A DNA stretch of 61,630 bases from Bryobacterales bacterium. Lineage in GTDB: Bacteria > Acidobacteriota > Terriglobia > Bryobacterales > Bryobacteraceae. A model generated the notes under the pieces. That model did not search any database. It had not been told where the DNA came from and was given only the letters and a program-made list of their open reading frames with translations. Location: positions 186,137-247,766 of the forward strand of contig PMUP01000013.1 of the NCBI GenBank assembly GCA_003166865.1, read 5' to 3'. Shown piece after piece: positions 19,809 to 34,137 of this stretch (its first letter is position 1; each line of letters opens with the position of its first letter). The position numbers were made by a program, and so were the translations under genes.

Positions 19809-19837
19809 TTGACAAGCTTAGCGTGCTGGCTTACACT
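19809..19837 (+). promoter_or_regulatory. Near-consensus sigma-70 promoter of the riboswitch operon
   Basis: TTGACA at 19809-19814, a 17-base spacer, then TACACT at 19832-19837. The -35 box is perfect and the -10 box matches four of six. Transcription should start near 19844, just before the first glycine aptamer (19861). It is downstream of the CoA-transferase stop, so the operon has its own promoter. Confidence 0.75.
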
Positions 19838-19860
19838 TGCTGGCAATCGAAATGTTGTGC

Positions 19861-20030
19861 TGACGGGAGAGACTGGCCTTGGCCAGCGCCGAAGGAGCAA
19901 CCGCCCCGGAAACTCTCAGGCAAAAGGACCGTCACTTCAGGAGATCTGGAGAGTGGTTGCAGCGGAGCGGCGAGTTCGCTACGTTTTGACCCGCCGAAGG
20001 AATAACGTTCTCAGGCAAACCGACAGATGG
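19861..20030 (+). promoter_or_regulatory. Tandem glycine riboswitch (two aptamers)
   Basis: Two copies of the glycine aptamer core lie back to back. Aptamer 1 (about 19861-19935) has GGGAGAGA, GCCGAAGGAGCAA and CTCTCAGGCAAAAGGAC; its P1 helix pairs ACGG (19863-19866) with CCGT (19929-19932). Aptamer 2 (about 19942-20030) has TGGAGAGT, GCCGAAGGAATAA and TTCTCAGGCAAACCGAC; its P1 pairs ATCTG (19944-19948) with CAGAT (20024-20028). The linker between them is short, as in cooperative tandem glycine riboswitches. No intrinsic terminator with a U-run is visible before the next start codon, so control of translation is likelier. The downstream gene is not gcvT but an outer-membrane protein, which is atypical. 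Confidence 0.9.
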
Positions 20031-20060
20031 GGCCAGAAAGAGCTGGTGAGTTAGCCCATG

Positions 20061-20096
20061 TCGGCATTCCATCCCACGTCCGCATTCCATACCACG
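20061..20096 (+). repeat. 18-bp tandem repeat (x2) in the riboswitch leader
   Basis: TCGGCATTCCATCCCACG at 20061-20078 is followed directly by TCCGCATTCCATACCACG at 20079-20096, with two mismatches in 18. It sits between the second aptamer and the ribosome site of the downstream gene, where the expression platform should be. Function unknown. Confidence 0.7.
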
Positions 20097-20124
20097 GGAA
20101 CCAAGATCAAAATACATGTTCAGT

Positions 20125-20130
20125 GAGGAG
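20125..20130 (+). promoter_or_regulatory. Ribosome binding site deciding the start of the TonB-linked gene
   Basis: GAGGAG, six bases before the ATG at 20137. The earlier in-frame ATG at 20116 lies upstream of this site and would place it inside the coding region, so 20137 is chosen. This is the likely target if the riboswitch controls translation. Confidence 0.7.
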
Positions 20131-20136
20131 AATGTT

Positions 20137-23100
20137 ATGTGCTTTTGGCTACGCCCGCTGCAAAGAAAGAATTTGCTGCTGCTTGTATGTTTAGCGCTTC
20201 TGGCCGGCGCCCCGCTATTCGCGCAGTCTACATTTGGTACTTTTGTGGGCACTGTTCAGGATCAATCCGGCAGCGTCATCTCAGGTGCCGTCGTCACCAT
20301 CACTAACCTCGAAGATAACAACGTTCGCAGCGCCACCTCAAACAGCAGTGGGCAGTACCAATTGCTGACTGTGCCGCCCGGCCGTTACTCCATATCGGTG
20401 GTCAGTGCCGGGTTTGGTCTTACCAAAATCAACGAGGTCACGCTCGACGCACGCCAGGAGAGGCGCGTCGATGTGAGCCTGGCGTTGGCCTCAGTCCAGC
20501 AGAGCGTGCAGGTGAGCGCGGAGGCCGCGGCCATCAACACCGAGAATGCGACCATCGTCAACACGATGAGCAATCAGGAGGTGACGCAATTGCCGGCGAA
20601 CTATCGCGGCGCTTCCACTAGCCCGCTCGGGGCGATTGTTGCGTCGGCCAACGTCACTCAAGATCAGTACGGAAACATCGGCCTCACCGGCTCACAGCCG
20701 TACCAGGTCGATTACTCGGTGGACGGCGCGTCCAGCGTAAACATTATTTATAATTCCCCCGCCAGCAACATGTTCCCTTCCTCCGAGATGCTGGCCGAGT
20801 TCAAAGTGTCGGCGATCAATAATAACGCCGAGTTCGCTACCACCGGCGACGTCACTGTCACCACCAAGAGTGGCGCGAACGCCATCCACGGAAGCGCCTT
20901 CGAGTATCTTCAGAATGCCGCCCTGGACGCCACCATCTACGGGTCGCCGGAGAAGCAGGCCAAGGTTTGGAATACGTTCGGCGGCAGTTTGAGCGGCCCG
21001 GTCGTAATTCCGAAACTTTACAACGGGCACGATAAAACATTCTTCTTCATTGACACCGAAGAGAACCGCAGACCCGGCTCACAGTTGGTGATCGATAACC
21101 TGCCCACCGCGGCCATGGTGTCAGGCAATCTCAATGGCGTGCCGGGCCCGCCTGCCGTGAACCCATTCACTGGTGCGCCGTTTCCCAACAACCAAATCCC
21201 GTCCATCCTGCTTAATCCGGTCACCCAGAAGCTTCTCACCACTTACTACCCCGCGCCCAACGACTTCTCCGGCTCAACCACGGGCGACTACAGGTCGCAA
21301 CTGAAGCTGGCGAATGAAACCAACGGATACGACGTCCGCATCGATCAATATATCGGAACGAAGAATCAGCTCTTCGGACGATGGACCTGGAAGAATCTTC
21401 CACAGCAGTCGACTACAAACAGCGGATTCGGGAACCAGGCACAGACCGCCCAATTATTGCCGCCAACCACCAACAACGAGACGGACAAGAATCTTATTCT
21501 TTCCGACAACTACACGATCACGCCGCACATCGTCAACGAGTTTCGATTTGGTTGGAGCCGCCTGGACATAGTCTCAACTTTTCCTTATCAAGGCGCGCAG
21601 GTCGATGCTTTCCTCGGATTGACTGGACTAGACCTGTCACGCGCCGGTACTGCGGGTGCCTTCCCTGGGTTCGATTTCAGCAGTGGAACGGGCTTTACTA
21701 ACCTCGGGCACGACTCCATAGGACCCGTGGGTTCCAAGGTGACCCAATTCGACGACAATCTTTCCTGGATCAAAGGCAAGCACACCATGAAGTTCGGTGC
21801 TGAGCTGCATCAAGTGGAGTACAACAGGATCGATGATTTCGGAGCATCCGACGAGTTCGGGTCATTCACCTTCAACGGCGACTTCAGCGGCAACGCATTT
21901 GCTGATCTTCTACTGGGTTTGCCGGCGACCGATCAAGTCTTCGTGACTGGACCTCACCTCGATCAAAAATCCAACCACTTCGCGGTCTACGCGCAGGACG
22001 AATGGCACGCGTCCAAGAGTCTCACCTTCAGCTTTGGCTTACGCTGGGAGCTCATGCCGCCCTTCTCGGAGAAAAATGGCAACATAGCCAATTTCAACCC
22101 GGCCACCGGCGGGATTGTCGTGCCCGACATCGCGCTTAAGGTGCTTCCTCCGGCAGCTTCTGTTTTGTATACCCTCAACGCGTGCTCTCTCAAACCGCTA
22201 CCCAACCCTGCTTACCCCTGTACACCGGTGGAGGATGCCAGCCAGGCAGGCCTGCCCACATGGCTGCGCTATACCGACTATCATGACTTCGATCCGCGCG
22301 CCGGCGTCGCATGGCGGCCTTTTGGTAACGACAAGACCGTGTTCCGGGCTGGTTTTGGCATCTTTACGGTTCCCAGCCTCGGTTGGGAAGCTTATATGAT
22401 GACAGGCGTCGCGGTAACCGACGCACCATTTTATGTCAACTCTATCACCAACGGGGTTCCGCTCTTCAAACTTCCAGCCGCTGGGTACGGCAACGGCGGA
22501 CTGACTCCGGCCGTGGTTGGTTCGTTTAATGTCTTCGAGGCACAGGATATTCATTACAGGGATCCCGCGTCAGCGCAGTGGAACGTAACCATCGAGCGGG
22601 AGCTCTGGAAGAACTGGACTGCGCGCGGCAGCTACATCGGAGAAAACACCTATGGTCTATCAATCAATGTAGACAAGAACCAATGTCATGCCAGCCCCGC
22701 CGGACCCTGCATCAAACCCTATCCGCAGTACAATTTAATCGTTTCGATGGAAAACCTGGGATTCGCGAACTATCAGGCCATGGAACTGCAGCTCGCTCAC
22801 CGTTTTTCTGGAGGATTCTCTTTACAGGCTACGTATGATTGGGCCAAAGATCTAACCAATGTGGCCGACGCCCCAGTAGGATACGGTACCGAAGCGGGCA
22901 ACTTCTCAGGTGGCTATTTAGTGAACGATCAGTACGCGCTGAGGGATGACCGGGGCAACGACGCAGGGCCACGACGCCAGCGTTTCTTGTTAACCGGAAT
23001 CTACCAGCTTCCATTCGGGCACGGCAAACCTTTCCTGGCGAACTCTAACAATTTCGTCAATGCAGCGCTGGGCGGGTGGCAGCTCAGTACGATTATTCTT

Positions 23101-23553
23101 TCTGAGACTGGGCCCTTCATGACCGCCATTGACAGCAACCCAGCCGTCAGCGTGTCTAACCTGAATGAACTCTATCGGGGGACGACGATACGGCCCGACC
23201 AGATCGGAAATTGCAACATTTCGAATCCCGGACCGAACGGCTGGTTCAATATCAACGCATTCGCTCTGACACCGCAGGGTGCGGGCCGCATCGGAAACGA
23301 GGGTGTCGGGAATTGCGTAGGCCCGCCGACGACTACCGTGTCGGCTGGACTATCAAAGACCTTCGCGATATGGGAGCGCCTCAGGATGCGCTTTGAGGCT
23401 ACCTACACGAATCTTCTGAACCACCCGAACTTCCTGCAGCCGCAATCCATGGACATTTCCTCACCCAGCACTTTCGGTGTGACACAAACGGTGCAGTCCG
23501 CCGAAAACGGCGGGAACCGCGTGGGCCAACTTTCCTTGCGACTCGACTTTTGA
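20137..23553 (+). CDS. Oar-like TonB-dependent outer-membrane protein with carboxypeptidase-regulatory domain
   Basis: 1138 residues from the ATG at 20137. A signal peptide (LLLLVCLALLAGAPLFAQ) precedes a carboxypeptidase-regulatory-like beta-sandwich (TFVGTVQDQSGSVISGAVVT), a plug-like region (around SQPYQVDYSVDGASSVN) and a long beta-barrel ending in LSLRLDF with the C-terminal phenylalanine of outer-membrane barrels. This Oar/TonB-dependent family is greatly expanded in Acidobacteria and usually imports sugars, peptides or other large nutrients. It is the first gene after the tandem glycine riboswitch and is followed after seven bases by a cytochrome gene, so it opens an eight-gene operon. 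The ligand is unknown; glycine-linked control suggests an amino-acid-derived or peptide substrate. Confidence 0.88.
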   Translation: MCFWLRPLQRKNLLLLVCLALLAGAPLFAQSTFGTFVGTVQDQSGSVISGAVVTITNLEDNNVRSATSNSSGQYQLLTVPPGRYSISVVSAGFGLTKINEVTLDARQERRVDVSLALASVQQSVQVSAEAAAINTENATIVNTMSNQEVTQLPANYRGASTSPLGAIVASANVTQDQYGNIGLTGSQPYQVDYSVDGASSVNIIYNSPASNMFPSSEMLAEFKVSAINNNAEFATTGDVTVTTKSGANAIHGSAFEYLQNAALDATIYGSPEKQAKVWNTFGGSLSGPVVIPKLYNGHDKTFFFIDTEENRRPGSQLVIDNLPTAAMVSGNLNGVPGPPAVNPFTGAPFPNNQIPSILLNPVTQKLLTTYYPAPNDFSGSTTGDYRSQLKLANETNGYDVRIDQYIGTKNQLFGRWTWKNLPQQSTTNSGFGNQAQTAQLLPPTTNNETDKNLILSDNYTITPHIVNEFRFGWSRLDIVSTFPYQGAQVDAFLGLTGLDLSRAGTAGAFPGFDFSSGTGFTNLGHDSIGPVGSKVTQFDDNLSWIKGKHTMKFGAELHQVEYNRIDDFGASDEFGSFTFNGDFSGNAFADLLLGLPATDQVFVTGPHLDQKSNHFAVYAQDEWHASKSLTFSFGLRWELMPPFSEKNGNIANFNPATGGIVVPDIALKVLPPAASVLYTLNACSLKPLPNPAYPCTPVEDASQAGLPTWLRYTDYHDFDPRAGVAWRPFGNDKTVFRAGFGIFTVPSLGWEAYMMTGVAVTDAPFYVNSITNGVPLFKLPAAGYGNGGLTPAVVGSFNVFEAQDIHYRDPASAQWNVTIERELWKNWTARGSYIGENTYGLSINVDKNQCHASPAGPCIKPYPQYNLIVSMENLGFANYQAMELQLAHRFSGGFSLQATYDWAKDLTNVADAPVGYGTEAGNFSGGYLVNDQYALRDDRGNDAGPRRQRFLLTGIYQLPFGHGKPFLANSNNFVNAALGGWQLSTIILSETGPFMTAIDSNPAVSVSNLNELYRGTTIRPDQIGNCNISNPGPNGWFNINAFALTPQGAGRIGNEGVGNCVGPPTTTVSAGLSKTFAIWERLRMRFEATYTNLLNHPNFLQPQSMDISSPSTFGVTQTVQSAENGGNRVGQLSLRLDF

Positions 23554-23560
23554 CAGCCAA

Positions 23561-24337
23561 ATGACAAGCCGCCTGCTATTTCTCGCCGGCTTTGTGCTTG
23601 CCTGCCGGCTGCTTCCGGGCCAGGAATCAGAACTGGTGCAGCCGAAGGCAACGCCCGAAGACCGGGCTGAGGGCCAGCGGATTTTTGGAACGCAGTGCTC
23701 TTACTGTCACGGGCCGAAGGGCGAGGGCGGACAAGGCGCGGTGCTGGCGCTGCCCCAGCTTTCTCACGCGCCCGACGACCTGAGTCTGTTTCGTGTCATC
23801 CGTGACGGTATTGCCGGGACCAAGATGCCAGCGAGCGCGCTGGCTCCCAACCAAATCTGGCAAGTAGTGGCGTTTGTGCGGGTCCTGGGCCGCGTCGAAG
23901 CAGCGAAATTAACCGGCGATCCCGCCCGTGGCCGGCAGATTTACGCAACAAAGGGAGGGTGCGCGCGATGCCACACCATGGGCGGCCATGGCGGCGGCAT
24001 CGGACCGGACCTCAGCGACATCGGCACGCGCCAAAACGCGGCCCAGGTGCGGACCTCGCTCCTCGATCCAGACGCCTCCGTGCCGCTGGACTTCCTTCAG
24101 GTCCGCGTGGTGACGAAAGACGGGCACAGTTTTACTGGAGTCCGCGTAAACGAAGACTCTTTCTCCATTCAGATTCGCGACCTCTCAAACCAATTTCATT
24201 CCTTCTGGAAGAGTGAACTGACCGAAATCTCTAAAGAGCCGAGGCGTTCTCTCATGCCGAGCTTCCGGAACACCCTCACTCCAGGGGAACTGGACGATTT
24301 GATCGCATATTTGGAATCTCCGCAAGGCGGCAAATGA
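23561..24337 (+). CDS. Exported diheme c-type cytochrome with heme-binding-domain tail
   Basis: 258 residues with a signal peptide (LLFLAGFVLACRLLPG). Two heme-attachment sites are present: CSYCH (Cys46, Cys49, His50) and CARCH (Cys134, Cys137, His138). A C-terminal beta-rich module follows (LDFLQVRVVTKDGHSFTGVR ... SELTEISKEP), as found in Acidobacteria/Planctomycetes cytochromes. It probably accepts electrons from the PQQ dehydrogenase encoded immediately downstream; the two genes overlap by ATGA at 24334-24337. The same order of domains recurs fused in the 26881-29208 protein, so this cytochrome plus its neighbour look like the split version of that fusion. Confidence 0.9.
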   Translation: MTSRLLFLAGFVLACRLLPGQESELVQPKATPEDRAEGQRIFGTQCSYCHGPKGEGGQGAVLALPQLSHAPDDLSLFRVIRDGIAGTKMPASALAPNQIWQVVAFVRVLGRVEAAKLTGDPARGRQIYATKGGCARCHTMGGHGGGIGPDLSDIGTRQNAAQVRTSLLDPDASVPLDFLQVRVVTKDGHSFTGVRVNEDSFSIQIRDLSNQFHSFWKSELTEISKEPRRSLMPSFRNTLTPGELDDLIAYLESPQGGK

Positions 24338-25920
24338 AAGGCATTCTTTTACTACTCCCAGCAGTCATGCTTTTGGATGGGCAGGTCCCGTATGAGCGCA
24401 TCCTCAACGCGCATTCGGAGCCAGGCAACTGGCTGACTTACTCGGGAGATTATCAAGCCCATGGCTATTCCGCGTTAGACCAGATCAATACATCGAACGT
24501 CGACCGTCTCAAGGTGGCCTGGATGTATCAGACCGGCGTGCTAGGTCATTTCGAGACTACGCCTCTGGTTTTCGATGGAGTCATGTATATCACCGAGCCG
24601 CTCAGTGGTGTGACGGCGCTCGATCTCCGCACAGGCCGTCCAATTTGGACTTACAAACGACCGCTGCCCAAGGGCGTAATCGTCTGCTGCGGGCTGGTGA
24701 ATCGCGGACTAGCGGTTCTGGATGACCAGCTCTTCCTGGGCACGGTGGATGCGCACCTGGTTGCGCTGGACATGCGGACCGGGCGTGTCCGTTGGGACGT
24801 GGAAGTAGCCGATTACAAGGCCGCCTACTCGATTACCGCCGCACCGCTCGTTCTGAAAGATAAAGTCATCATCGGCATAGCCGGCGCCGAATACGGTATC
24901 CGCGGCTTCCTGGACGCATACGATGTAAAGACCGGTGCGAGATCCTGGCGCTTCTACACGGTGCCTGCGCCGGGCGAGCCCGGCAACGAAACCTGGGCGG
25001 GCGATAGCTGGAAGACCGGCGGCGCTCCCACTTGGGTCACCGGCGCGTATGACCCGGAAGCCAACCTGGTGTATTGGGGAACAGGCAACCCTTCGCCGGA
25101 TATGATCGGCGACGAGCGCAATGGCGACAATCTTTACTCCGACGCCCTGATCACTCTCGACGCCGACACCGGAAAGTTGAAATGGCATTTCCAGTTCACT
25201 CCGCACGACACGCTCGACATGGATGCCAACCAAGTGCCGGTGCTCGTGGACGCCGACTTTCGCGGCCGGCCCAGGAAGCTGGTACTGTTCGCCAACCGGA
25301 ACGGTTTTTACTACGTGCTGGACCGGCTCACCGGCGAATATCTCGTGGGCAAGCAATTTGCGCGGCAGAATTGGGCCATGGGACTCGACCCGCATGGGCG
25401 TCCCATCTGGAATCCGGCGGCAGTCCCGAGCTTTGAAGGAGCGCTCGTGTATCCGGACGATGATGGCACGGCAAATTGGTTCAGCCCATCGCTGGACTTG
25501 AAGACCGGGCTCTTGTATCAAAATGTTCGGGAGAAGGGAGCCATCCAGAAGCGCACCACCAAAACCCTCTCCTTCGAGCCCGGGCATCTATACATGGGAG
25601 CCGATCGATTGCCGATCCCCGGCGAAGAGCCGTGGGGAGCGCTGCGGGCGCTAGATTGGCAAACCGGCGAAATGCGTTGGGAATTTCGAGTGCAAACCCC
25701 ACCTTGGTGCGGAGTTCTTTCCACCGCGGGCGGCTTGGTCTTCTCTGGAACCATGGAAGGCGACTTCTTCGCCGTCGACGCAGTGTCAGGCAAACTGGCT
25801 TGGCGATTTCAGACCGGTGGCGCCATCTGGTCGAATCCGATCAGCTACCTGAGTGAAGGGAAGCAGTATATCGTGGTCGCCGCCGGCGATGCCCTCATGG
25901 CTTTCAGCGTCGACCGATAA
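24334..25920 (+). CDS. PQQ-dependent alcohol dehydrogenase (stand-alone propeller)
   Basis: 528 residues with a short signal peptide (MKGILLLLPAVMLLDG). An eight-bladed quinoprotein propeller is evident: W-motif blades such as AWMYQTGVLGHFETTPLVFD, LDLRTGRPIWTYKR and LDADTGKLKWHFQFTPHD. The vicinal disulfide pair typical of methanol/ethanol quinoproteins is present as Cys118-Cys119 (GVIVCCGLVNRG), and TPHDTLDMDANQVPVL holds the acidic residues near PQQ. It would oxidise an alcohol or aldehyde in the periplasm and hand electrons to the diheme cytochrome encoded just upstream. No PQQ biosynthesis genes are in the window. It is three bases before the cyclase gene. Confidence 0.9.
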   Translation: MKGILLLLPAVMLLDGQVPYERILNAHSEPGNWLTYSGDYQAHGYSALDQINTSNVDRLKVAWMYQTGVLGHFETTPLVFDGVMYITEPLSGVTALDLRTGRPIWTYKRPLPKGVIVCCGLVNRGLAVLDDQLFLGTVDAHLVALDMRTGRVRWDVEVADYKAAYSITAAPLVLKDKVIIGIAGAEYGIRGFLDAYDVKTGARSWRFYTVPAPGEPGNETWAGDSWKTGGAPTWVTGAYDPEANLVYWGTGNPSPDMIGDERNGDNLYSDALITLDADTGKLKWHFQFTPHDTLDMDANQVPVLVDADFRGRPRKLVLFANRNGFYYVLDRLTGEYLVGKQFARQNWAMGLDPHGRPIWNPAAVPSFEGALVYPDDDGTANWFSPSLDLKTGLLYQNVREKGAIQKRTTKTLSFEPGHLYMGADRLPIPGEEPWGALRALDWQTGEMRWEFRVQTPPWCGVLSTAGGLVFSGTMEGDFFAVDAVSGKLAWRFQTGGAIWSNPISYLSEGKQYIVVAAGDALMAFSVDR

Positions 25921-25923
25921 TTT

Positions 25924-26874
25924 ATGATGCGGAACGCAGCCATCTCTCTTCTTATCGCTGCGGTCTTGTTGCCTGCCGAATCCGATCACAAGGTGACGAA
26001 AGCTGACATCGACCGGTGGATGACCGAGTTTTCCAATTGGGGCCGCTGGGGTAAAGACGATCAGCTCGGCACGCTGAACCTCATCACTCCCGCCAAGCGC
26101 CGGCAAGCCGTCGCGCTGGTGAAAGAGGGCTACTCGATTTCAATGGCCCACAACGTCCTCACCGAGAAGGCAGTCGACAATGAGAATCCGTTTGTACATA
26201 CCATGTTGCCCGCTGCCGGCGGATTCCACATGGACAACTACAATGTCTCTTTCCATGGAATGGGGCAGACGCACTTCGATGCGCTGTGCCACGCGAGTTA
26301 TCAAGGGAAACTTTATAACGGCTTCCCGGTGGACCAGATTACCGCGCAAGGTTGTCCCGAGGATTCGGTTCTTCCGGTCAAGACCGGCATCCTGACACGC
26401 GGGGTGATCATCGACATCGCGAGGCTGAAGGGCGTGGATTATCTGGAGCCGGGCACGCCGATTTATCCGGAAGACTTAGCCGCATGGGAGAAGCAAACGG
26501 GGGTGAAGGTTTCGGCCGGGGATGCGGTTTTCGTTCGTAGCGGACGCTGGGCCATGCGCGCCGCCAAGGGTCCTGGACCGGCCTTCGCGGGCCTGCACGC
26601 TTCTTGCGCTAAATGGCTGCACGACCGCGGTGTCGCGGTCTTAGGCGGGGATGCCGACCCAGAAGTGATTCCATCGCAAGTGGAAGGCATTGGCGCGCCG
26701 ATCCACCTCATGGCATTGGTCGCGATGGGTCTCCCTCTTTTCGACGAATGCGATCTGGAAGACCTGGGTAGGGAAGCGGCAAAGCGCAAACGCTGGGTTT
26801 TTCTGTTCACCGCGGCTCCGCTGGCGGTTCCTGGCGGCACGGGTTCTCCCATCAATCCGATCGCAACCTACTAA
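25924..26874 (+). CDS. Exported cyclase-family (kynurenine formamidase-like) metal hydrolase
   Basis: 316 residues with a signal peptide (AAISLLIAAVLLPAES). The Cyclase family (PF04199) motif HxDxxxH is visible in GMGQTHFDALCHASY, followed by RGVIIDIARLKG, a typical strand, and the GDAVFVRSGRW block. Family members are zinc or manganese hydrolases that open N-formyl or lactam/lactone bonds (kynurenine formamidase, isatin hydrolase). Export is unusual for characterised members but common in Acidobacteria. Location between two PQQ dehydrogenases suggests it acts on their substrate or product. Gap to the next gene is six bases. Confidence 0.85.
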   Translation: MMRNAAISLLIAAVLLPAESDHKVTKADIDRWMTEFSNWGRWGKDDQLGTLNLITPAKRRQAVALVKEGYSISMAHNVLTEKAVDNENPFVHTMLPAAGGFHMDNYNVSFHGMGQTHFDALCHASYQGKLYNGFPVDQITAQGCPEDSVLPVKTGILTRGVIIDIARLKGVDYLEPGTPIYPEDLAAWEKQTGVKVSAGDAVFVRSGRWAMRAAKGPGPAFAGLHASCAKWLHDRGVAVLGGDADPEVIPSQVEGIGAPIHLMALVAMGLPLFDECDLEDLGREAAKRKRWVFLFTAAPLAVPGGTGSPINPIATY

Positions 26875-26880
26875 AGAACG

Positions 26881-29208
26881 ATGACGACAAGAACACTCCG
26901 ATCCTGTGCCCCGGTTCTCCTGGCCGTGCTCCTATGCGCGTGGCCGGGAAGGGCGCAGGAAAACGAGACCGGCAAGAAGCTGTTTGCAACTCGCTGTGCC
27001 AGTTGCCACGGCGCTGACGGCGGCGGCGGTGAGTTCGGTCCCGACATCGCTGATGTGCGCGGGTTAGGCCATCGAGACATGAAGGTTGCGGACATTATCA
27101 AGAACGGTCTTGCGGATTACGGCATGCCGGCATTTCCGCTGCCGCAGCAGGATGTGGATGCATTGGCGGCTTTCGTCAGCGGACTGCGCGCCCCGGCCTT
27201 CGAGCATCCACCGGCTGGCAATGCCGAGGCAGGCGGGAGCTTCTTCTTCGGAAAAGGAAACTGCGCGAACTGCCACCTGGTAAAGGGACGCGGAGGTGTT
27301 CTGGGGCCAGACCTATCCAACCTCGGACGCGACACCAGGCTGGCGCGGATCCAACTGGCTTTGCGCGATCCCAATGCGCTCGGCATGGCGGGCTACAAGT
27401 TGGTTTCGGTTCGCCTGCGTTCCGGGCAAACTATCCGCGGTCTCGCCAAGAACGAAAGCAATTACGATCTCCAGTTACAGGACCTGGATGGGAAATTGCA
27501 TTTTGTGACGCGAGAAGAAATTGCCGAGGAGATCGCCGAGCCGAAAGGTTTGATGCCTCCGCTCAGCGCAACGGATTCCGAGCAACGCGATCTGCTGGCA
27601 TTCCTCAGCCGGCTTGCCAAGGACAACTCGATATCTTCGCTCGGGGCGGGGACGGCCGCGCTCGCGGGCGATCCGGCATTCTCGGCCATAGCCGCTCCCA
27701 AACCGGGCGATTGGCCGACCTACCACGGTCACCTCAGCGGAAATCGCCATAGCGAGCTCATTGAGATCAACAACGCAAATGTCGCGCAACTGGGGGCCAA
27801 GTGGATGTTCCCTATCGCGGATTCCAATCATCTGGAAGTGACACCGGTGGTTGTGGACGGCGTGATGTACGTGACCACCGCCAACCAAGCCTATGCGCTG
27901 GACGCTCGCAGCGGGCGGCAGATCTGGCATTACTCTCAACCTCTGACCAAAGGCGTTATCGGGGATGCCGGTACCGCCATCAATCGCGGTGTTGCGGTTC
28001 TGGGCGACACGGTTTTCATGGTCACCGATCATGCCCATATCATCGCGCTCAACCGTCTGAGCGGCGAACTTCTCTGGGACACCGAAATGGCCGATTATCG
28101 CAAGAACTACGGCTCTACGTCGGCTCCGCTGGTGGTCAAAGATCTGGTGCTTTCCGGCACCTCCGGAGGCGACGAGGGAGCGCGAGGTTTCGTGGACGCT
28201 TACAAAGCTTCCACCGGCGAACACGCATGGCGATTCTGGAATATGCCGGCGCCCGGCGAGCCATTGTCAGAAACCTGGGTCGGCCGGGTGATGGAATCGC
28301 AACACGGATGCGTGGATGGATGGTTGACCGGAACCTATGATCCGAGCACGGATCTGATCTACTGGCCGACCGGCAATCCGTGCCCCGACTACAACGGTGA
28401 CGAGCGTAAGGGCGATAATCTCTACTCCAGTTCGGTTCTGGCGCTCGAGCCTGCGACCGGCAAACTTCGCTGGCACTTCCAGTTCAGCCCGCACGACCTG
28501 CATGATTGGGACGCCACCGAGACGCCGATGCTCATCGACGCTGAATTTCGCGGCCGCCCGCGCAAGCTGCTGGTTCAGGCGAATCGCAACGGCTTCTTTT
28601 ACGTTCTCGATCGCGTAACCGGCGAGTTTTTGCTGGGCGAACCCTTCGTCAAGAGACTCACCTGGGCCAGCGGCATCGGCGGGGATGGCCGTCCAAAGCT
28701 AGTGCCGGGCCAGGAACCATCGGAGCAGGGAATAAAGACCTGCCCTTCGGTTTCGGGTGCGACGAACTGGATGTCCACGGCCTACAGCCCGGCCACCGGG
28801 TTGTTCTATGTGATGGCGCTCGAGTCCTGCGCTATTTATACGAAATCGTCGGCCTGGTGGGAGCAGGGGCAATCGTTCTACGGCGGCGCAGCGCGGCGAG
28901 TCCCAGGCGAGACCGATCAGAAATTCCTGCGGGCCATCGATATACAGACTGGCAAGATCGTCTGGGAAGTTCCCCAGGTCGGATCGAGCCATAGCGGTGG
29001 AGGCGTGCTCTCGACGGCGGGAGGCTTGGTGTTTTTTGGCGACGACAACGGTGCATTGGCGGCGGTTGATGCAAAGACCGGTAAGGCGCTCTGGCATTTT
29101 CACACCAACGAGACCCTGCGCGCGTCGCCCATGACTTACATGGTGGATGGAAAGCAATATATCTCCATCGCCTCCGGTTCGAACATCATCGCGTTTGGAT
29201 TGCCATAA
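26881..29208 (+). CDS. Quinohemoprotein: diheme cytochrome c fused to PQQ dehydrogenase
   Basis: 775 residues with a signal peptide (VLLAVLLCAWPGRAQ). The N-terminal third carries CASCH (Cys39, Cys42) and CANCH (Cys128, Cys131), then the heme-binding-domain tail (VSVRLRSGQTIRGLAK ... EEIAEEIAEPKGLMPP). The remaining two thirds form a PQQ propeller (LDARSGRQIWHYSQPLTKGV, ALEPATGKLRWHFQFSPHD). Unlike its neighbour, the vicinal-cysteine position reads KGVIGDAGTAINRG, with no cysteines. It is the fused equivalent of the split pair 23561-25920. It overlaps the next gene by one base (TAATG at 29206-29210). Confidence 0.9.
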   Translation: MTTRTLRSCAPVLLAVLLCAWPGRAQENETGKKLFATRCASCHGADGGGGEFGPDIADVRGLGHRDMKVADIIKNGLADYGMPAFPLPQQDVDALAAFVSGLRAPAFEHPPAGNAEAGGSFFFGKGNCANCHLVKGRGGVLGPDLSNLGRDTRLARIQLALRDPNALGMAGYKLVSVRLRSGQTIRGLAKNESNYDLQLQDLDGKLHFVTREEIAEEIAEPKGLMPPLSATDSEQRDLLAFLSRLAKDNSISSLGAGTAALAGDPAFSAIAAPKPGDWPTYHGHLSGNRHSELIEINNANVAQLGAKWMFPIADSNHLEVTPVVVDGVMYVTTANQAYALDARSGRQIWHYSQPLTKGVIGDAGTAINRGVAVLGDTVFMVTDHAHIIALNRLSGELLWDTEMADYRKNYGSTSAPLVVKDLVLSGTSGGDEGARGFVDAYKASTGEHAWRFWNMPAPGEPLSETWVGRVMESQHGCVDGWLTGTYDPSTDLIYWPTGNPCPDYNGDERKGDNLYSSSVLALEPATGKLRWHFQFSPHDLHDWDATETPMLIDAEFRGRPRKLLVQANRNGFFYVLDRVTGEFLLGEPFVKRLTWASGIGGDGRPKLVPGQEPSEQGIKTCPSVSGATNWMSTAYSPATGLFYVMALESCAIYTKSSAWWEQGQSFYGGAARRVPGETDQKFLRAIDIQTGKIVWEVPQVGSSHSGGGVLSTAGGLVFFGDDNGALAAVDAKTGKALWHFHTNETLRASPMTYMVDGKQYISIASGSNIIAFGLP

Positions 29209-30617
29209 TGCGATTCGTCGTCACAAGTGGATTTCTGTTGGCTGTATTGGCCGTCGCCGAAGCCCAGGTGGCCGACGAACAGGCGCTGCCCCCGGCGCCG
29301 GGCCGTCGAGTAGTCAGTGTGACGCCGGCTCCAGGTGAATTCAACGGGCCGTCCATTGCAATCAACCCTGCCAACCCTCAGCAAATTGTTGTCGCATTCG
29401 GATCGCGGGTAACCGCCGATTATTCCACCGATGGCGGTGAGCACTGGGCGATGTCCGAGGGAACAGCGCCAACCAACTACCGCGCTTCCGGCGACATCTC
29501 GGTCACCTACGATCACCGGGGCCACGCCATTTTGTGCTTCATCGCCTTCGACGGCGCAGGCTCGTGGAGATATTGGGGCCACAACCCCAAACGAAATAGC
29601 ATCCAGATCCGCCGCTCGCTGGATGGCGGGAAGACCTGGGAGCCTCGCACGATCCCGGTGATCGAGCACGCTGAGGGTCCTGGCATTCCATTCGAGGATA
29701 AACCTTATGTTGTCGCGGACAATCAAGCGAAGAGCCCCTACGCGGGAAATCTGTACGTCGGCTGGACGGAGGATCGAACGGCCGATTCTCTAATACTTTT
29801 CTCTCGCTCCACGGATGGCGGGCTGACCTGGTCGGCGCCTATGCGGATCAGCGACCGTCCCGGGACGCCGCGTGACGATGAAGGCACGGTGCAGGGATTT
29901 AGTGGTGTGGTTACGCCCGATGGCGCGTTGCACGTGATCTGGAGCGATCGGGGTCACATCGTCTACGCTGTTTCGCGCGACGGCGGAAAGACTTTTTCGC
30001 GCAACCATTGGGTGGCCGAAGCCGGTCCGTCGAACTTCATGGTGTTTAACGCCAATCACGCCAATGGCTACCCGCAAATCGACATGGCCGTCGACAAGGT
30101 CGGCAAGGCCGGCAAGAATGGTGGGCCCGCCCGGCTGTACGTTGCCTGGAACGATTACCGCAACGGAGACGTCGACATCTTCTGCGCAACTTCGATGGAT
30201 GGCGGCCGGACTTGGGGGCCCCCAGTTCGGGTCAACTCCGACCCGCTGCATAACGGCGCGGATCAGCTATTCCAGTGGTTGGCCGTGGACCCGTCGTCCG
30301 GCGCGGTGAACGTAGTGTTTTATGATCGCCGGCGGGACCCCGCCAACAAGACGGTGGATGTCACGCTCGCCCGATCCACCGACGGCGCGCGAACATTCCG
30401 CAATTATCTTCTGAGCGAGCATTCTTACGATCCGCTGGATAGCGAGATCGGGGAGTATACCGCGCTGGCCGCGCTCGGCGGGCGTGTTTACGGAAGCTGG
30501 ATGGAGGTAGTGTCGCAGCCCGGCTCGTCTTCGCCGCCAGGTGGAAACTCGCGGACGGCATCATTCATTCGCATTGGCACGGCGGATTTTAGCTCGCCGG
30601 GGACCGGCCAGAAATAG
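29208..30617 (+). CDS. Secreted BNR/Asp-box repeat protein (sialidase-like propeller)
   Basis: 469 residues with a signal peptide (VTSGFLLAVLAVAEAQ). Six Asp-box repeats (SxDGGxxW) are visible: STDGGEHW, SLDGGKTW, STDGGLTW, SRDGGKTF, SMDGGRTW and the degenerate STDGARTF. That fits a six-bladed sialidase/neuraminidase-type propeller. The arginine triad and catalytic Tyr/Glu pair of true sialidases cannot be confirmed, so exo-sialidase activity is not claimed. It is translationally coupled to the quinohemoprotein gene (one-base overlap), hence part of the same operon. Confidence 0.8.
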   Translation: MRFVVTSGFLLAVLAVAEAQVADEQALPPAPGRRVVSVTPAPGEFNGPSIAINPANPQQIVVAFGSRVTADYSTDGGEHWAMSEGTAPTNYRASGDISVTYDHRGHAILCFIAFDGAGSWRYWGHNPKRNSIQIRRSLDGGKTWEPRTIPVIEHAEGPGIPFEDKPYVVADNQAKSPYAGNLYVGWTEDRTADSLILFSRSTDGGLTWSAPMRISDRPGTPRDDEGTVQGFSGVVTPDGALHVIWSDRGHIVYAVSRDGGKTFSRNHWVAEAGPSNFMVFNANHANGYPQIDMAVDKVGKAGKNGGPARLYVAWNDYRNGDVDIFCATSMDGGRTWGPPVRVNSDPLHNGADQLFQWLAVDPSSGAVNVVFYDRRRDPANKTVDVTLARSTDGARTFRNYLLSEHSYDPLDSEIGEYTALAALGGRVYGSWMEVVSQPGSSSPPGGNSRTASFIRIGTADFSSPGTGQK

Positions 30618-30695
30618 AAGCTGTTGTGAACGAGGTTGCGCAAATCCTACAAGATTGCGCGAACGGATATAATAGACTACACCGAAGGAGACTGT
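30618..30695 (+). promoter_or_regulatory. 78-bp spacer with possible internal promoter
   Basis: This is the only sizeable gap in the operon. It holds a perfect TATAAT at 30668-30673 but no convincing -35 box 16-18 bases upstream, and a direct repeat TTGCGC at 30636 and 30655. A GAAGGAG ribosome site at 30684-30690 sits five bases before the ATG at 30696. An internal promoter for the last two genes is possible but not demonstrated. Confidence 0.3.
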
Positions 30696-31940
30696 ATGAC
30701 TTCACGCCGCCAATTCCTAGCTGCTAGCGCCGCCGCAGGCGCTTTCGCCGCCATACCAGCGCGGGCTGCTAAAACAAGTCCCACCGGATTTCCCTACACC
30801 GAGTTCGAGGCACGTATCGCTCGGCGCGATTTCCGTGACATGACCAAGGACGTTCTACCCACCCCCTGTATGGTCGTTGACGAAGCGCTGTTCCAGCGGA
30901 ACTTGAAGATCATGGCGGATCAGATCAAGTCGACCGGTATCAGCATTCGCCCGCACGTCAAGATTCATAAGAGCGTGGATGTCGCCAAGATTCAGCTCGC
31001 ACACGGCGGAATCGGACTCACCTGCGCCACCATCGCCGAGGCGGAGCTCATGTCCAATGCCGGCCTCAAGAACGTGATGTGGACCAAGCAGCCCGCCAGC
31101 AAGAACGGCATAGAACGAGCGGTCGCGCTCTCCATCAAAGATCCCACCTTCATGTTCGTGATCGATGATCCCATCGTGTTCGATTGGATTGAGCAGGCGG
31201 CTATTGCCGACAGCGCCCACCTCAAGGTCCTGGTATCGGTGGACGCGGGCCTGAGCAGGCAGGGCATAGAAAATGGTCAGCCTGCCGTCGATCTGGCACA
31301 GAAGATTGCATCTTCCAAGCACATGCAGTTTGAGGGCATCATGGCGTATGCCGGCGCTGCTGCCCATACCAAGACGTTTGAGAAGCGGCGTGTGGAATCC
31401 GCCAAGGACATGGCTGCGCCGAGAGAGACGGTGGAGTTAATCAAGAAGTCCGGACTGCCGGTGAATATCTTCACTGGTGGCTCGACCGGCACTTACAACA
31501 TCGACCATGAGAACGGCCTCACCGAGCTCGAAGTGGGATCCTACGTATTCATGGACACCAGGTACTTCGTTATCGGCGGCAAGAGCGACGACACGAATTA
31601 TAACGATTTCGCCGGCGCTCTCACCGTACTTACCACCGTGGATAGCAGACGCCATCCCAGCCAGGTTACGATCGACTACGGCAACAAGGCCGGAGTCAGG
31701 CCGACCGACAAGGTGAAAGGGATGCCTTGGCTGGACGTTTCGACCCAAGGCGCGGAGTACGGCCTCCTCAAGTGGAAGGACGGAGACCGGGACCTCAAGC
31801 TGGGCGATCGGGTGGAAATCTATTGCACCGTCCTGGACGACAGCACAAGCTACTACGATCGGTACTATGTCGCTCGTGGCGATCAAATCGTCGATGCTTG
31901 GCCCATCATGGGACGTGCTCCCGGCGCGGCGTGGCGCTGA
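30696..31940 (+). CDS. Tat-exported DSD1/D-threonine-aldolase-like PLP protein
   Basis: 414 residues from the ATG at 30696 (the frame opens at 30636, but the GAAGGAG site decides the start). The N-terminus (MTSRRQFLAASAAAGAFAA) is a twin-arginine signal. The fold is the alanine-racemase-type barrel: TPCMVVDEALFQRN, then RPHVKIHKS with the candidate Schiff-base lysine (Lys89), GIMAYAGAAAHT, FTGGSTGTYN, and the C-terminal DRYYVARGDQIVDAWPI. Characterised relatives are D-serine dehydratase and D-threonine / D-3-hydroxyaspartate aldolase; the aldolases release glycine. The metal motif near the C-terminus is degenerate (DRVEIYCTVLDDS where SHCD/SHCC is expected). It overlaps the next gene by ten bases. 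Confidence 0.82.
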   Translation: MTSRRQFLAASAAAGAFAAIPARAAKTSPTGFPYTEFEARIARRDFRDMTKDVLPTPCMVVDEALFQRNLKIMADQIKSTGISIRPHVKIHKSVDVAKIQLAHGGIGLTCATIAEAELMSNAGLKNVMWTKQPASKNGIERAVALSIKDPTFMFVIDDPIVFDWIEQAAIADSAHLKVLVSVDAGLSRQGIENGQPAVDLAQKIASSKHMQFEGIMAYAGAAAHTKTFEKRRVESAKDMAAPRETVELIKKSGLPVNIFTGGSTGTYNIDHENGLTELEVGSYVFMDTRYFVIGGKSDDTNYNDFAGALTVLTTVDSRRHPSQVTIDYGNKAGVRPTDKVKGMPWLDVSTQGAEYGLLKWKDGDRDLKLGDRVEIYCTVLDDSTSYYDRYYVARGDQIVDAWPIMGRAPGAAWR

Positions 31941-32893
31941 TACTCAAATCAGTTGTCGCTGCGTGCGTCGCTCTACAACTGACGGCTGTTGGGCAAGACC
32001 AGAAACCTCCGCCACGCAAGTTTGAGTTGAAAGCTGAATCCGACGATTTCTGGAAGCTGATCGATCGAGGAGCCAAGCTCGAAAAGTTCGCGGGCGGATT
32101 CGGATTCACCGAAGGGCCCGTCTGGGACTCGCGAGGGTTCTTGTATGTCAGCGATGAAATACAGAACGAAATCTTTCGCGTGTTCCCGGGCGGACGCCGC
32201 GAAACGGTATTCAAGACCGGCGATCCCGACGGAAGCACCTATGATCGCAAGCATCGGCTGATCACTACCGCTAGCGTGTTGCGGGCGATAGTGGAGGTGA
32301 AGCCTGACGGCTCCTACCAGGTGCTGGCTGACAAGTACGAAGGGAAGCGTCTGAACAGCCCCAATGACGTCCTGCTGGGGCCGGACGGCGCGCTTTACTT
32401 TACCGATCCAACGCTCGATTTGGTAAAAGGCGAGAAGCAGGAAATCCCGTTTCAGGGAGTGTATCGCCTGGCTGCCGATGGATCGCTGCGCCTGTTGACG
32501 AAGGATCTCGCGCAGCCCAATGGCCTGGCGTTTTCGCCCGACGGCCGGCTGCTGTATATCGACGACTCCATGAATCGCGACATCCACGTCTACGATTTCA
32601 GTTCGAAGGGCGAACTAAGCAACGGACGGCTTTTCGGTAAGGAAGAAGGGCCGCCGGACTCGTTCGTGCCGGATGGAATGCGGGTGGATCGCCAGGGAAA
32701 TGTCTACGTGACAGGACCGCTGGGAATCTGGATTTGGGATCCCAAGGGAAAGCACCTGGGCACCCTCGTGTTACCCGAGATGCCTGCAAATCTGATTTGG
32801 GGTGACGCCGATTTCAGCACGCTTTACATCACCGCCACCACGTCCGTGTACCGGTTGAAGACCAAGGCGCGCGGCTTCGTTCCCTATGAATAG
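31931..32893 (+). CDS. Exported SMP-30/gluconolactonase-family protein
   Basis: About 320 residues. The frame is open further upstream, but that part shadows the PLP gene; the best start is the GTG at 31931, giving a signal-like N-terminus (LILKSVVAACVALQLTAVGQ). The propeller motifs are clear: GFGFTEGPVWDSRGFLYVSD with the metal-binding glutamate, RLNSPNDVLLGPDGALYFTD with the conserved Asn-Asp, and AFSPDGRLLYIDDS. SMP-30 enzymes hydrolyse sugar lactones with a divalent metal ion. A lactonase after PQQ oxidations makes chemical sense, since PQQ enzymes can generate lactones. Last gene of the operon, convergent with DUF711. Confidence 0.88.
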   Translation: MALILKSVVAACVALQLTAVGQDQKPPPRKFELKAESDDFWKLIDRGAKLEKFAGGFGFTEGPVWDSRGFLYVSDEIQNEIFRVFPGGRRETVFKTGDPDGSTYDRKHRLITTASVLRAIVEVKPDGSYQVLADKYEGKRLNSPNDVLLGPDGALYFTDPTLDLVKGEKQEIPFQGVYRLAADGSLRLLTKDLAQPNGLAFSPDGRLLYIDDSMNRDIHVYDFSSKGELSNGRLFGKEEGPPDSFVPDGMRVDRQGNVYVTGPLGIWIWDPKGKHLGTLVLPEMPANLIWGDADFSTLYITATTSVYRLKTKARGFVPYE

Positions 32894-32898
32894 CCAGC

Positions 32899-34137
32899 TC
32901 AGCGCTTCGCGCCCGGCAGCGCCTGCACGGTTGTGTTCTTCAAGAAGGCGCTCTCGGTAAACTCGGTCCTTTCCCCGGGCTTTTTCCCAGGGGCCGGAAG
33001 CAACCGCGCGGCAAGTGGCTTGTTCCACTTGTAGGCGAGCGAGGCGAGATCCCCTAAAATGCGCGCAATCTGCTGCTCGCTTATATCGCCTTGTAATGGC
33101 ACTGTGTCCAGCCCGCCGGCGCACACCGCCGAGTAAGCCAGCATCGAGTCCAGGCTGAAGGTCCCTTCCGCCCACCGGCGGGCCAGAACATTGTCCTCGA
33201 GTATCGGAACCATCAGGCCCGAGTAACCGGTGCGCTTCACCGGCGTGGATTGTACGGCGTGCGTAATAATTCTGGCGGCAGTCAAAGTGCCGCTGGATCC
33301 AAACGGTCCACCGATGAACGATTCGATCGCGCCGCCAATGGAGCGGTCTCCGAGTGGCGCGGGAGTGGCGTCGATGCCTTCGTACGTCCACCCGCTGCTG
33401 GATGCAATCTGGATCGCCACCTTCTCAGCTTCCTTGGTGTATTGAGCGAACGCCTCCGTTAGGTGCTGTTCAGCTTCGCGAGGATCGTGATAGCGTTCGA
33501 ATACGTCGGCCACCACGTTCGCTCCCTCCATCGCGATCGCAAAAGCGTGTCCCTGGCCCAGATGATAGGAGCCGGGGTAATAGGGCCCATACGGTTTCAC
33601 CATCGCAATGGCGCCGAAGTTGAAGTTGCCGTCGCCGTGCGGGCTGTGCTCGGAAACCGCCTTGATCAACTTCGCCGCTTGCTGGACGGCGCGCCAGTGG
33701 ATGCCTTGGTCGTCTGCCACGATCAGGTTGGCATTGACGCCGGTGTCCGCTAGAACGTCCGCCAGAAAAGCCACCGGTGCAGTGTCGTCGCCGTCGTGGA
33801 TCATCGCCGGGCCGATGTTGAGCGCGGATCCGCCTTTCGAAGCGGCATCGAGCATCTTGCGGATCAACCGCAGTGCATCCTCCCGTTTCATCCCTTTGGT
33901 GTAAATGGGGAAAGGCTGCGTGGTGATGCGTCCACCCGCGCCCTCGAATCCGGCCCGATTGAAGGCTATTTTTGCGGCCGCCAGGAACTTCTGTGTCTGC
34001 TCGATCCCGGCAGTGGCATTATTCGGATCGATTTCGATGAACGCTGTGACGGCGCGAATCCGTGGACGGCTGTCCGCCCCAAAAACCACGGTGGAGAGGC
34101 AAAGAGCCAGCAGGATTTTTCGCACGGCTTGGATCAT
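32899..34137 (-). CDS. Exported DUF711-family protein
   Basis: 412 residues with a signal peptide (ILLALCLSTVVFGADS). The rest matches DUF711/UPF0210: RAVTAFIEID near the start, SALNIGPAMIHDGDD, GSYHLGQGHAFAIAMEGANV, GSIGGA-like DRSIGGAIESF, GTLTAARIITHAVQ and GYSGLMVPILEDN. Homologues are usually cytoplasmic and of unknown function, although they resemble pyruvate-formate-lyase-related folds. Export is therefore unusual. It starts four bases after the stop of the RidA gene, so the two form an operon, convergent with the glycine-riboswitch operon. Confidence 0.82.
   Translation of the reverse strand: MIQAVRKILLALCLSTVVFGADSRPRIRAVTAFIEIDPNNATAGIEQTQKFLAAAKIAFNRAGFEGAGGRITTQPFPIYTKGMKREDALRLIRKMLDAASKGGSALNIGPAMIHDGDDTAPVAFLADVLADTGVNANLIVADDQGIHWRAVQQAAKLIKAVSEHSPHGDGNFNFGAIAMVKPYGPYYPGSYHLGQGHAFAIAMEGANVVADVFERYHDPREAEQHLTEAFAQYTKEAEKVAIQIASSSGWTYEGIDATPAPLGDRSIGGAIESFIGGPFGSSGTLTAARIITHAVQSTPVKRTGYSGLMVPILEDNVLARRWAEGTFSLDSMLAYSAVCAGGLDTVPLQGDISEQQIARILGDLASLAYKWNKPLAARLLPAPGKKPGERTEFTESAFLKNTTVQALPGAKR

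Follow-up and report, generated by a model that had tools for sequence, protein, structure and literature searches.

A 61,630-nucleotide stretch of the genome of a Bryobacterales bacterium (hereafter the window) harbours a glycine riboswitch of the tandem type directly ahead of an eight-gene run that encodes, among others, an outer-membrane receptor-like protein, a cytochrome and two pyrroloquinoline quinone (PQQ) dehydrogenases. The switch resembles those that precede the glycine-cleavage gene gcvP in related genomes, and we lean towards the view that a gcvP-type tandem switch was recruited to an uptake and periplasmic-oxidation operon, where it would probably act as an ON switch without an intrinsic terminator, and where glycine would signal amino-acid plenty. 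The observation behind the original prediction, two aptamers followed by the gene run, was confirmed; its interpretation, a glycine-controlled periplasmic oxidation operon with glycine as a possible product or feedback signal, found partial support.

Both aptamers exceed the gathering score (32 bits) of the Rfam covariance model RF00504. Aptamer 1 (19854..19941, + strand) scored 68.2 bits with an E-value of 4.3e-12 in the window, and aptamer 2 (19936..20036, + strand) scored 41.7 bits in a scan of its own genome and 35.3 bits when the scored stretch begins at 19940; the conserved core sequence of the family is present in the alignments of both. The window-level scan reported aptamer 1 alone; a six-base overlap between the two matches is the probable cause. 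No further RF00504 match was reported among the 150 of 663 candidates scored in the genome. An intact CoA-transferase gene precedes the switch.

A sigma-70-like site (TTGACA-17-TACACT, 19809..19837, + strand), which had been put forward as a near-consensus promoter, is indeed present with 10 of 12 matches and ends 16 bases upstream of the switch. Sites of this quality are no commoner in the region than chance would have it (four found against 4.6 expected in 13.6 kb), so that the position of the site is more telling than its score; a promoter here is plausible. Downstream, the leader (20037..20136, + strand) separates the end of the switch from the start of the first gene (20137) by 100 bases, in which no terminator-like hairpin was listed. 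The switch is oriented toward the gene run, with no gene in between apart from a 22-codon open reading frame (ORF; 20058-20126) whose stop codon falls within the ribosome-binding site of the first gene, a position from which one might conjecture that its translation is coupled to that of the first gene. This small ORF contains the repeat GCATTCCATMCCACG. We also considered that it might be the relic of a gcvP start; its position fits, and the peptide is by eye unlike GcvP.

The lineage of the switch was traced through RF00504 matches in 40 of 237 genomes of the family, found in two scans (30 of 200 genomes under stricter filters, by which weak matches were lost, and 10 of 37), and in 6 of 396 genomes in a phylum-wide draw under the stricter filters, the source genome being included in both tallies. 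Downstream genes were inspected at 48 other sites, tandems being counted once (32, 11 and 5 from the 200-genome scan, the 37-genome scan and the phylum-wide draw, respectively). A fused gcvP lies downstream of 40 of them and gcvT of two (L061 and L280, the latter a 112-amino acid fragment); the remaining six are single aptamers before non-gcv genes. The gcvP assignments rest on blastp against the GcvPA and GcvPB of L061, with L211 called by eye from its N-terminus and L032 confirmed by Pfam; at L039, L053, L062 and L286 gcvP was seen as a fragment only. At two sites the tandem switch is followed by a serine dehydratase gene and then by gcvP (L045 by Pfam, L046 by its matching start), from which it follows that the regulons of gcvP switches take in new genes. 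At L210 and L213 gcvP is reached via another gene of about 470 amino acids.

A 37-nucleotide core of aptamer 1 at 19886 is identical in 20 of the 48 other sites, all of them gcvP switches, which identifies the window switch as one of the gcvP type. Of the 40 gcvP sites, all but L054, with 26, match this core at 34 or more of its 37 positions without gaps, compared with 22 at L061, the gcvT site from the source organism's genus, 32 at the other gcvT site (L280) and 17 to 22 in the six single aptamers. A tree without tested support likewise nests the window aptamer among the gcvP switches. Aptamer 1 also scores higher than aptamer 2, in keeping with what excerpts of PMC6944388 report on the conservation of aptamer 1 in glycine-cleavage switches. 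The window copy shares both aptamers, the aptamer-1 core and the tandem order with the tandem switches of glycine-cleavage operons, but differs from them in preceding a receptor/PQQ operon whose start lies 100 bases off.

In the five genomes of the genus the search for gcvP returned split-type P-protein matches (a single one in G093) and no fused gene, so that the window presents a gcvP-type switch before another operon in a genome where fused gcvP went undetected. The genome's own split gcvP genes lie on contig C104 (38000-50000, L172), and no RF00504 match was obtained in that gcv region. We note that the genus mate G140 has a glycine switch before gcvT, whereas the split gcv genes of the source genome have no detected one. 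In-place replacement of gcvP by the operon is unsupported, as the window and the switch loci have no convincing neighbours in common: a comparison at 35% identity and an E-value of 1e-25 returned six matches, five of them to window genes that are ABC-type by position and one partial, and none adjoins the operon.

The eight-gene, nearly gapless run described in the original prediction was recovered as eight + strand ORFs spanning 20137-32893 and separated by 7, -4, 3, 6, -1, 18 and -10 bases, an arrangement suggestive of a single transcript. The first gene (20137..23553; ATG at 20137 preceded by GAGGAG at 20125-20130, the listed ORF beginning at 20116) encodes an outer-membrane barrel of the OMP_b-brl_4 family (PF25183, 650.9 bits) with a CarboxypepD_reg domain (PF13620, 67.2 bits). 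It is followed by genes for a diheme cytochrome c (23561..24337; PF13442, two CxxCH motifs), a stand-alone PQQ dehydrogenase (24334..25920), a cyclase-family hydrolase (25924..26874; PF04199, 64.7 bits), a fused diheme cytochrome c-PQQ dehydrogenase (26881..29208), a BNR-repeat protein (29208..30617; PF13088, 57.2 bits), a Tat-type exported pyridoxal phosphate (PLP) protein resembling DSD1 (30696..31940; PF01168, PF14031) and an SMP-30/gluconolactonase-like protein (31931..32893; PF08450, 171.6 bits; GTG start chosen by eye). The sixth gap is 18 bases if the DSD1-like gene begins at an alternative TTG at 30636 and 78 bases if it begins at the ATG at 30696. Pfam agrees with the domain calls made earlier for all eight proteins; the matches listed for the barrel protein include no plug-domain model, so that the label 'TonB-linked' rests on resemblance. 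All eight, the hydrolase and the BNR-repeat protein included, have by eye an export-signal-like N-terminal stretch. Directly after the operon lies a convergent DUF711 gene (window 32899-34137), the product of which also has a signal-like N-terminus.

Both quinoproteins exceed the cut-off (480.05) of TIGR03075, the methanol/ethanol family of PQQ dehydrogenases, with scores of 557.3 for the stand-alone and 493.1 for the fused enzyme. Among the fused-dehydrogenase relatives with names (n=22), 20 are labelled Acidobacteria or groups such as Terriglobia, Bryobacterales and Vicinamibacterales, which we take to be acidobacterial; the other two are labelled Gemmatimonadetes and Mesorhizobium. The best Protein Data Bank match of both enzymes is the quinoprotein ethanol dehydrogenase 6zcv, a lanthanide-type enzyme (PedH), and alignment to it reveals a D-x-D motif in both, a feature described in excerpts of PMC11996626 as a sign of lanthanide use in PQQ dehydrogenases. 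Unlike PedH, the second enzyme of the window carries a fused diheme cytochrome and has no vicinal cysteine pair; of the two window enzymes, only the stand-alone one has that pair. Assignment to the 'acido-empty-quinoprotein' model TIGR04528 was rejected, as the two scores (537.6 and 553.4) fall below its cut-off of 650 and the genome encodes PqqE (440.6, over a cut-off of 381.35), the sole pqq gene searched.

Copies of the operon were sought in the neighbourhoods of four of its genes. None turned up at 23 loci of the DSD1-like gene (which has matches in 214 of 237 genomes), at 13 of the receptor (strong matches in 44 genomes), at any of the 22 loci returned for the fused dehydrogenase or at 12 of the cyclase (from 80 genomes), with the proviso that a number of these contigs break off close to the gene, where absence is not proof. 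Rfam searches of 15 of 30 receptor loci and 8 of 22 dehydrogenase loci returned no glycine switch beyond the window's own. Partial echoes do exist: at L086 a cytochrome gene, a PQQ dehydrogenase gene and one other gene precede a DSD1-like gene; at L126 and L131 the receptor adjoins a DSD1-like gene; L197 has a receptor, a cytochrome, a lactonase (62%) and a dehydrogenase (50%); and at L249 a fused dehydrogenase (61%) and a cyclase (58%) start about 7 kb apart. Given these echoes and the lack of a full copy, the operon seems to have been put together from parts that are common across the family.

Under the recruitment that we favour, the promoter-like site directly upstream would place the switch in the 5' leader of the eight-gene operon, and high cytoplasmic glycine, bound by the window copy, would raise expression of the operon, as expected of glycine-cleavage switches. 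The lack of an intrinsic terminator leaves translational or Rho-type control, and translation of the first gene is the probable point of regulation. On this view glycine would tell the cell that amino acids are plentiful, and would not be something that the operon makes. Several results weigh against this proposal. No PQQ operon lies downstream of any of the 48 other sites, so that the conservation in relatives expected of the whole arrangement did not hold within the examined loci, and the pairing of switch and PQQ operon is seen at 1 of 49 sites. The 100-base spacing exceeds that of most gcvP sites, where the distance from switch to start (longest ORF) is often 6-45 bases and at most 78 apart from L211, where it is 190. 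Folding with and without a forced P1 stem of aptamer 2 found no expression platform in the window. Shuffled versions of the 321-base leader fold as stably as the leader itself (z -0.15; 46 of 100 shuffles equalled or bettered it), and forcing P1 costs 9.9 kcal/mol and fails to open either the ribosome-binding site of the first gene (unpaired 0.30 free, 0.24 forced) or its start (0.38 to 0.17), the AUG of the small ORF passing only from 0.07 to 0.21. Among the 20 of 37 relatives taken through the same test (the remaining 17 were either passed over or lacked a recognisable P1), the start was clearly opened in two, L044 and L056, and not in the rest.

These results lend some weight to the main rival explanation, that the switch is a vestige of a lost or rearranged gcvP operon, left by chance before an unrelated operon and of no useful regulatory effect. 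Its gcvP-type core, the failure to find fused gcvP in five genomes of the genus, the lack of an RF00504 match in the genome's own split gcv region, the uniqueness of the pairing and the folding results would all suit such a vestige. We nevertheless regard it as unlikely: both aptamers are intact, aptamer 1 ranks sixth in E-value among the 33 sites of the 200-genome scan, a promoter-like site is in place, a comparison with gcvP loci revealed no shared neighbours, and the spacing at L211 makes that of the window less odd. The direction of control is a separate matter. According to excerpts of PMC6944388, glycine turns glycine-degradation genes up and uptake genes down, and an operon that begins with an uptake-type receptor could by that token be repressed by glycine, as are transport genes. 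The sequence likeness is, however, to glycine-cleavage switches, on which account an ON switch is favoured and an OFF switch seems improbable.

The original proposal that the exported DSD1-like aldolase produces glycine, which in turn acts back on the operon, now appears very doubtful. The protein does belong to the same sequence family as the D-3-hydroxyaspartate aldolase BhcC and D-threonine aldolase and shares their PLP-lysine motif; its RPHVKIHKS aligns to BhcC, the PLP lysine being assigned by likeness to the enzyme's Lys59. The metal ligands of D-threonine aldolase are His347 and Asp349 (PMC4401734, in part). Unlike these enzymes, the window protein, an Ala_racemase_N/D-ser_dehydrat protein predicted to be exported (its Tat-like signal scores 20.6 bits, below the cut-off of 22.7), has valine at the position of His347, the aspartate being kept, and 23 aligned relatives have asparagine or threonine there. 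Glycine release is unsupported because this metal-ligand histidine is absent, and the curated BhcC model, at 217.4 bits against a cut-off of 690, likewise speaks against glycine production, as do the matches to the gene in 214 of 237 genomes, in other gene settings. Where aldolases carry the metal-binding PxHxD, the orthologues (L084-L086, L114-L133) mostly have EIYCSNLDxST; judging from these alignments they are possibly a distinct, uncharacterised subfamily of widespread, seemingly exported PLP proteins. Finally, an assembly error that joined the switch to the operon is suggested by the draft state of the genome (107 contigs) and by the unique pairing, and is highly improbable given that the junction lies inside a 247,766-base contig, 104 bases past the end of the intact CoA-transferase gene.

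A wider form of the recruitment idea draws on the six single aptamers (50.5 to 65.5 bits), which occur in three genera (genomes G112, G139 and G204) at L048:3001-6402, L059:3001-9031, L063:3001-9978 and L276:3001-3856 and, in reverse orientation, at 14893-15001 of L060 and 1542-1649 of L277. At L048 and L060 the aptamer precedes a receptor of the same barrel family as that of the window and a DUF5117/DUF4953 metallopeptidase (58% and 71% mutual identity), with an additional NamZ muramidase at L048; these receptor genes, in two other genera, favour the wider idea. At L059 and L063 it precedes a MacB-type ABC operon with an M20 peptidase later in the operon, and at L276 a MacB-type ABC gene set of which the contig holds no more than part of the ATPase gene; at L277, a cut stretch, an M20 peptidase adjoins its own switch. 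L276 and L277 show by eye a ghost-aptamer-like 3' stem (CTCTGG ... ACAGAG). A promoter-like site (10 or 11 of 12 matches) lies upstream in five of the six, farther off in L060; none of the gcv sites scored for promoters exceeded 9 of 12. As an instance of a glycine switch ahead of surface genes, the single aptamers are better conserved than the arrangement of the window. We tentatively suggest that in the Acidobacteriota glycine switches may have been recruited more than once, from two switch lineages (the tandem gcvP type and the single aptamers of three genera), to run genes for outer-membrane receptors, secreted peptidases, MacB-type ABC transporters and periplasmic oxidation, glycine being an intracellular signal of food rich in protein or cell wall.

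Open-licence literature on glycine riboswitches in connection with Acidobacteria, TonB, PQQ or a peptidase/ABC regulon described neither arrangement, and thus contained no report of the single-aptamer regulon, which is weak evidence of absence. Acidobacteria and TonB go unmentioned in the portions of the main text of PMC6944388, PMC12452182, PMC3766115 and PMC2211319 available to us, as do Acidobacteria and the outer membrane in those of PMC9481103. In excerpts of PMC5756330, a cobalamin switch is associated with a TonB receptor, and the glycine switch with gcvT. Other targets of glycine riboswitches, according to parts of PMC2211319 and PMC9481103, include malate synthase and serC, which like the window operon lie away from gcvT and gcvP, but which belong to glycine, serine or pyruvate metabolism, whereas the targets in the window are extracytoplasmic. 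In the window, a glycine switch persists although none was detected at the genome's own glycine-cleavage genes, and the single-aptamer regulon, found in three genera, makes the idea testable without reliance on this single case. If true, a well-studied metabolite switch would have been extended beyond its customary glycine-handling targets, and glycine would cue these bacteria to forage at their surface.

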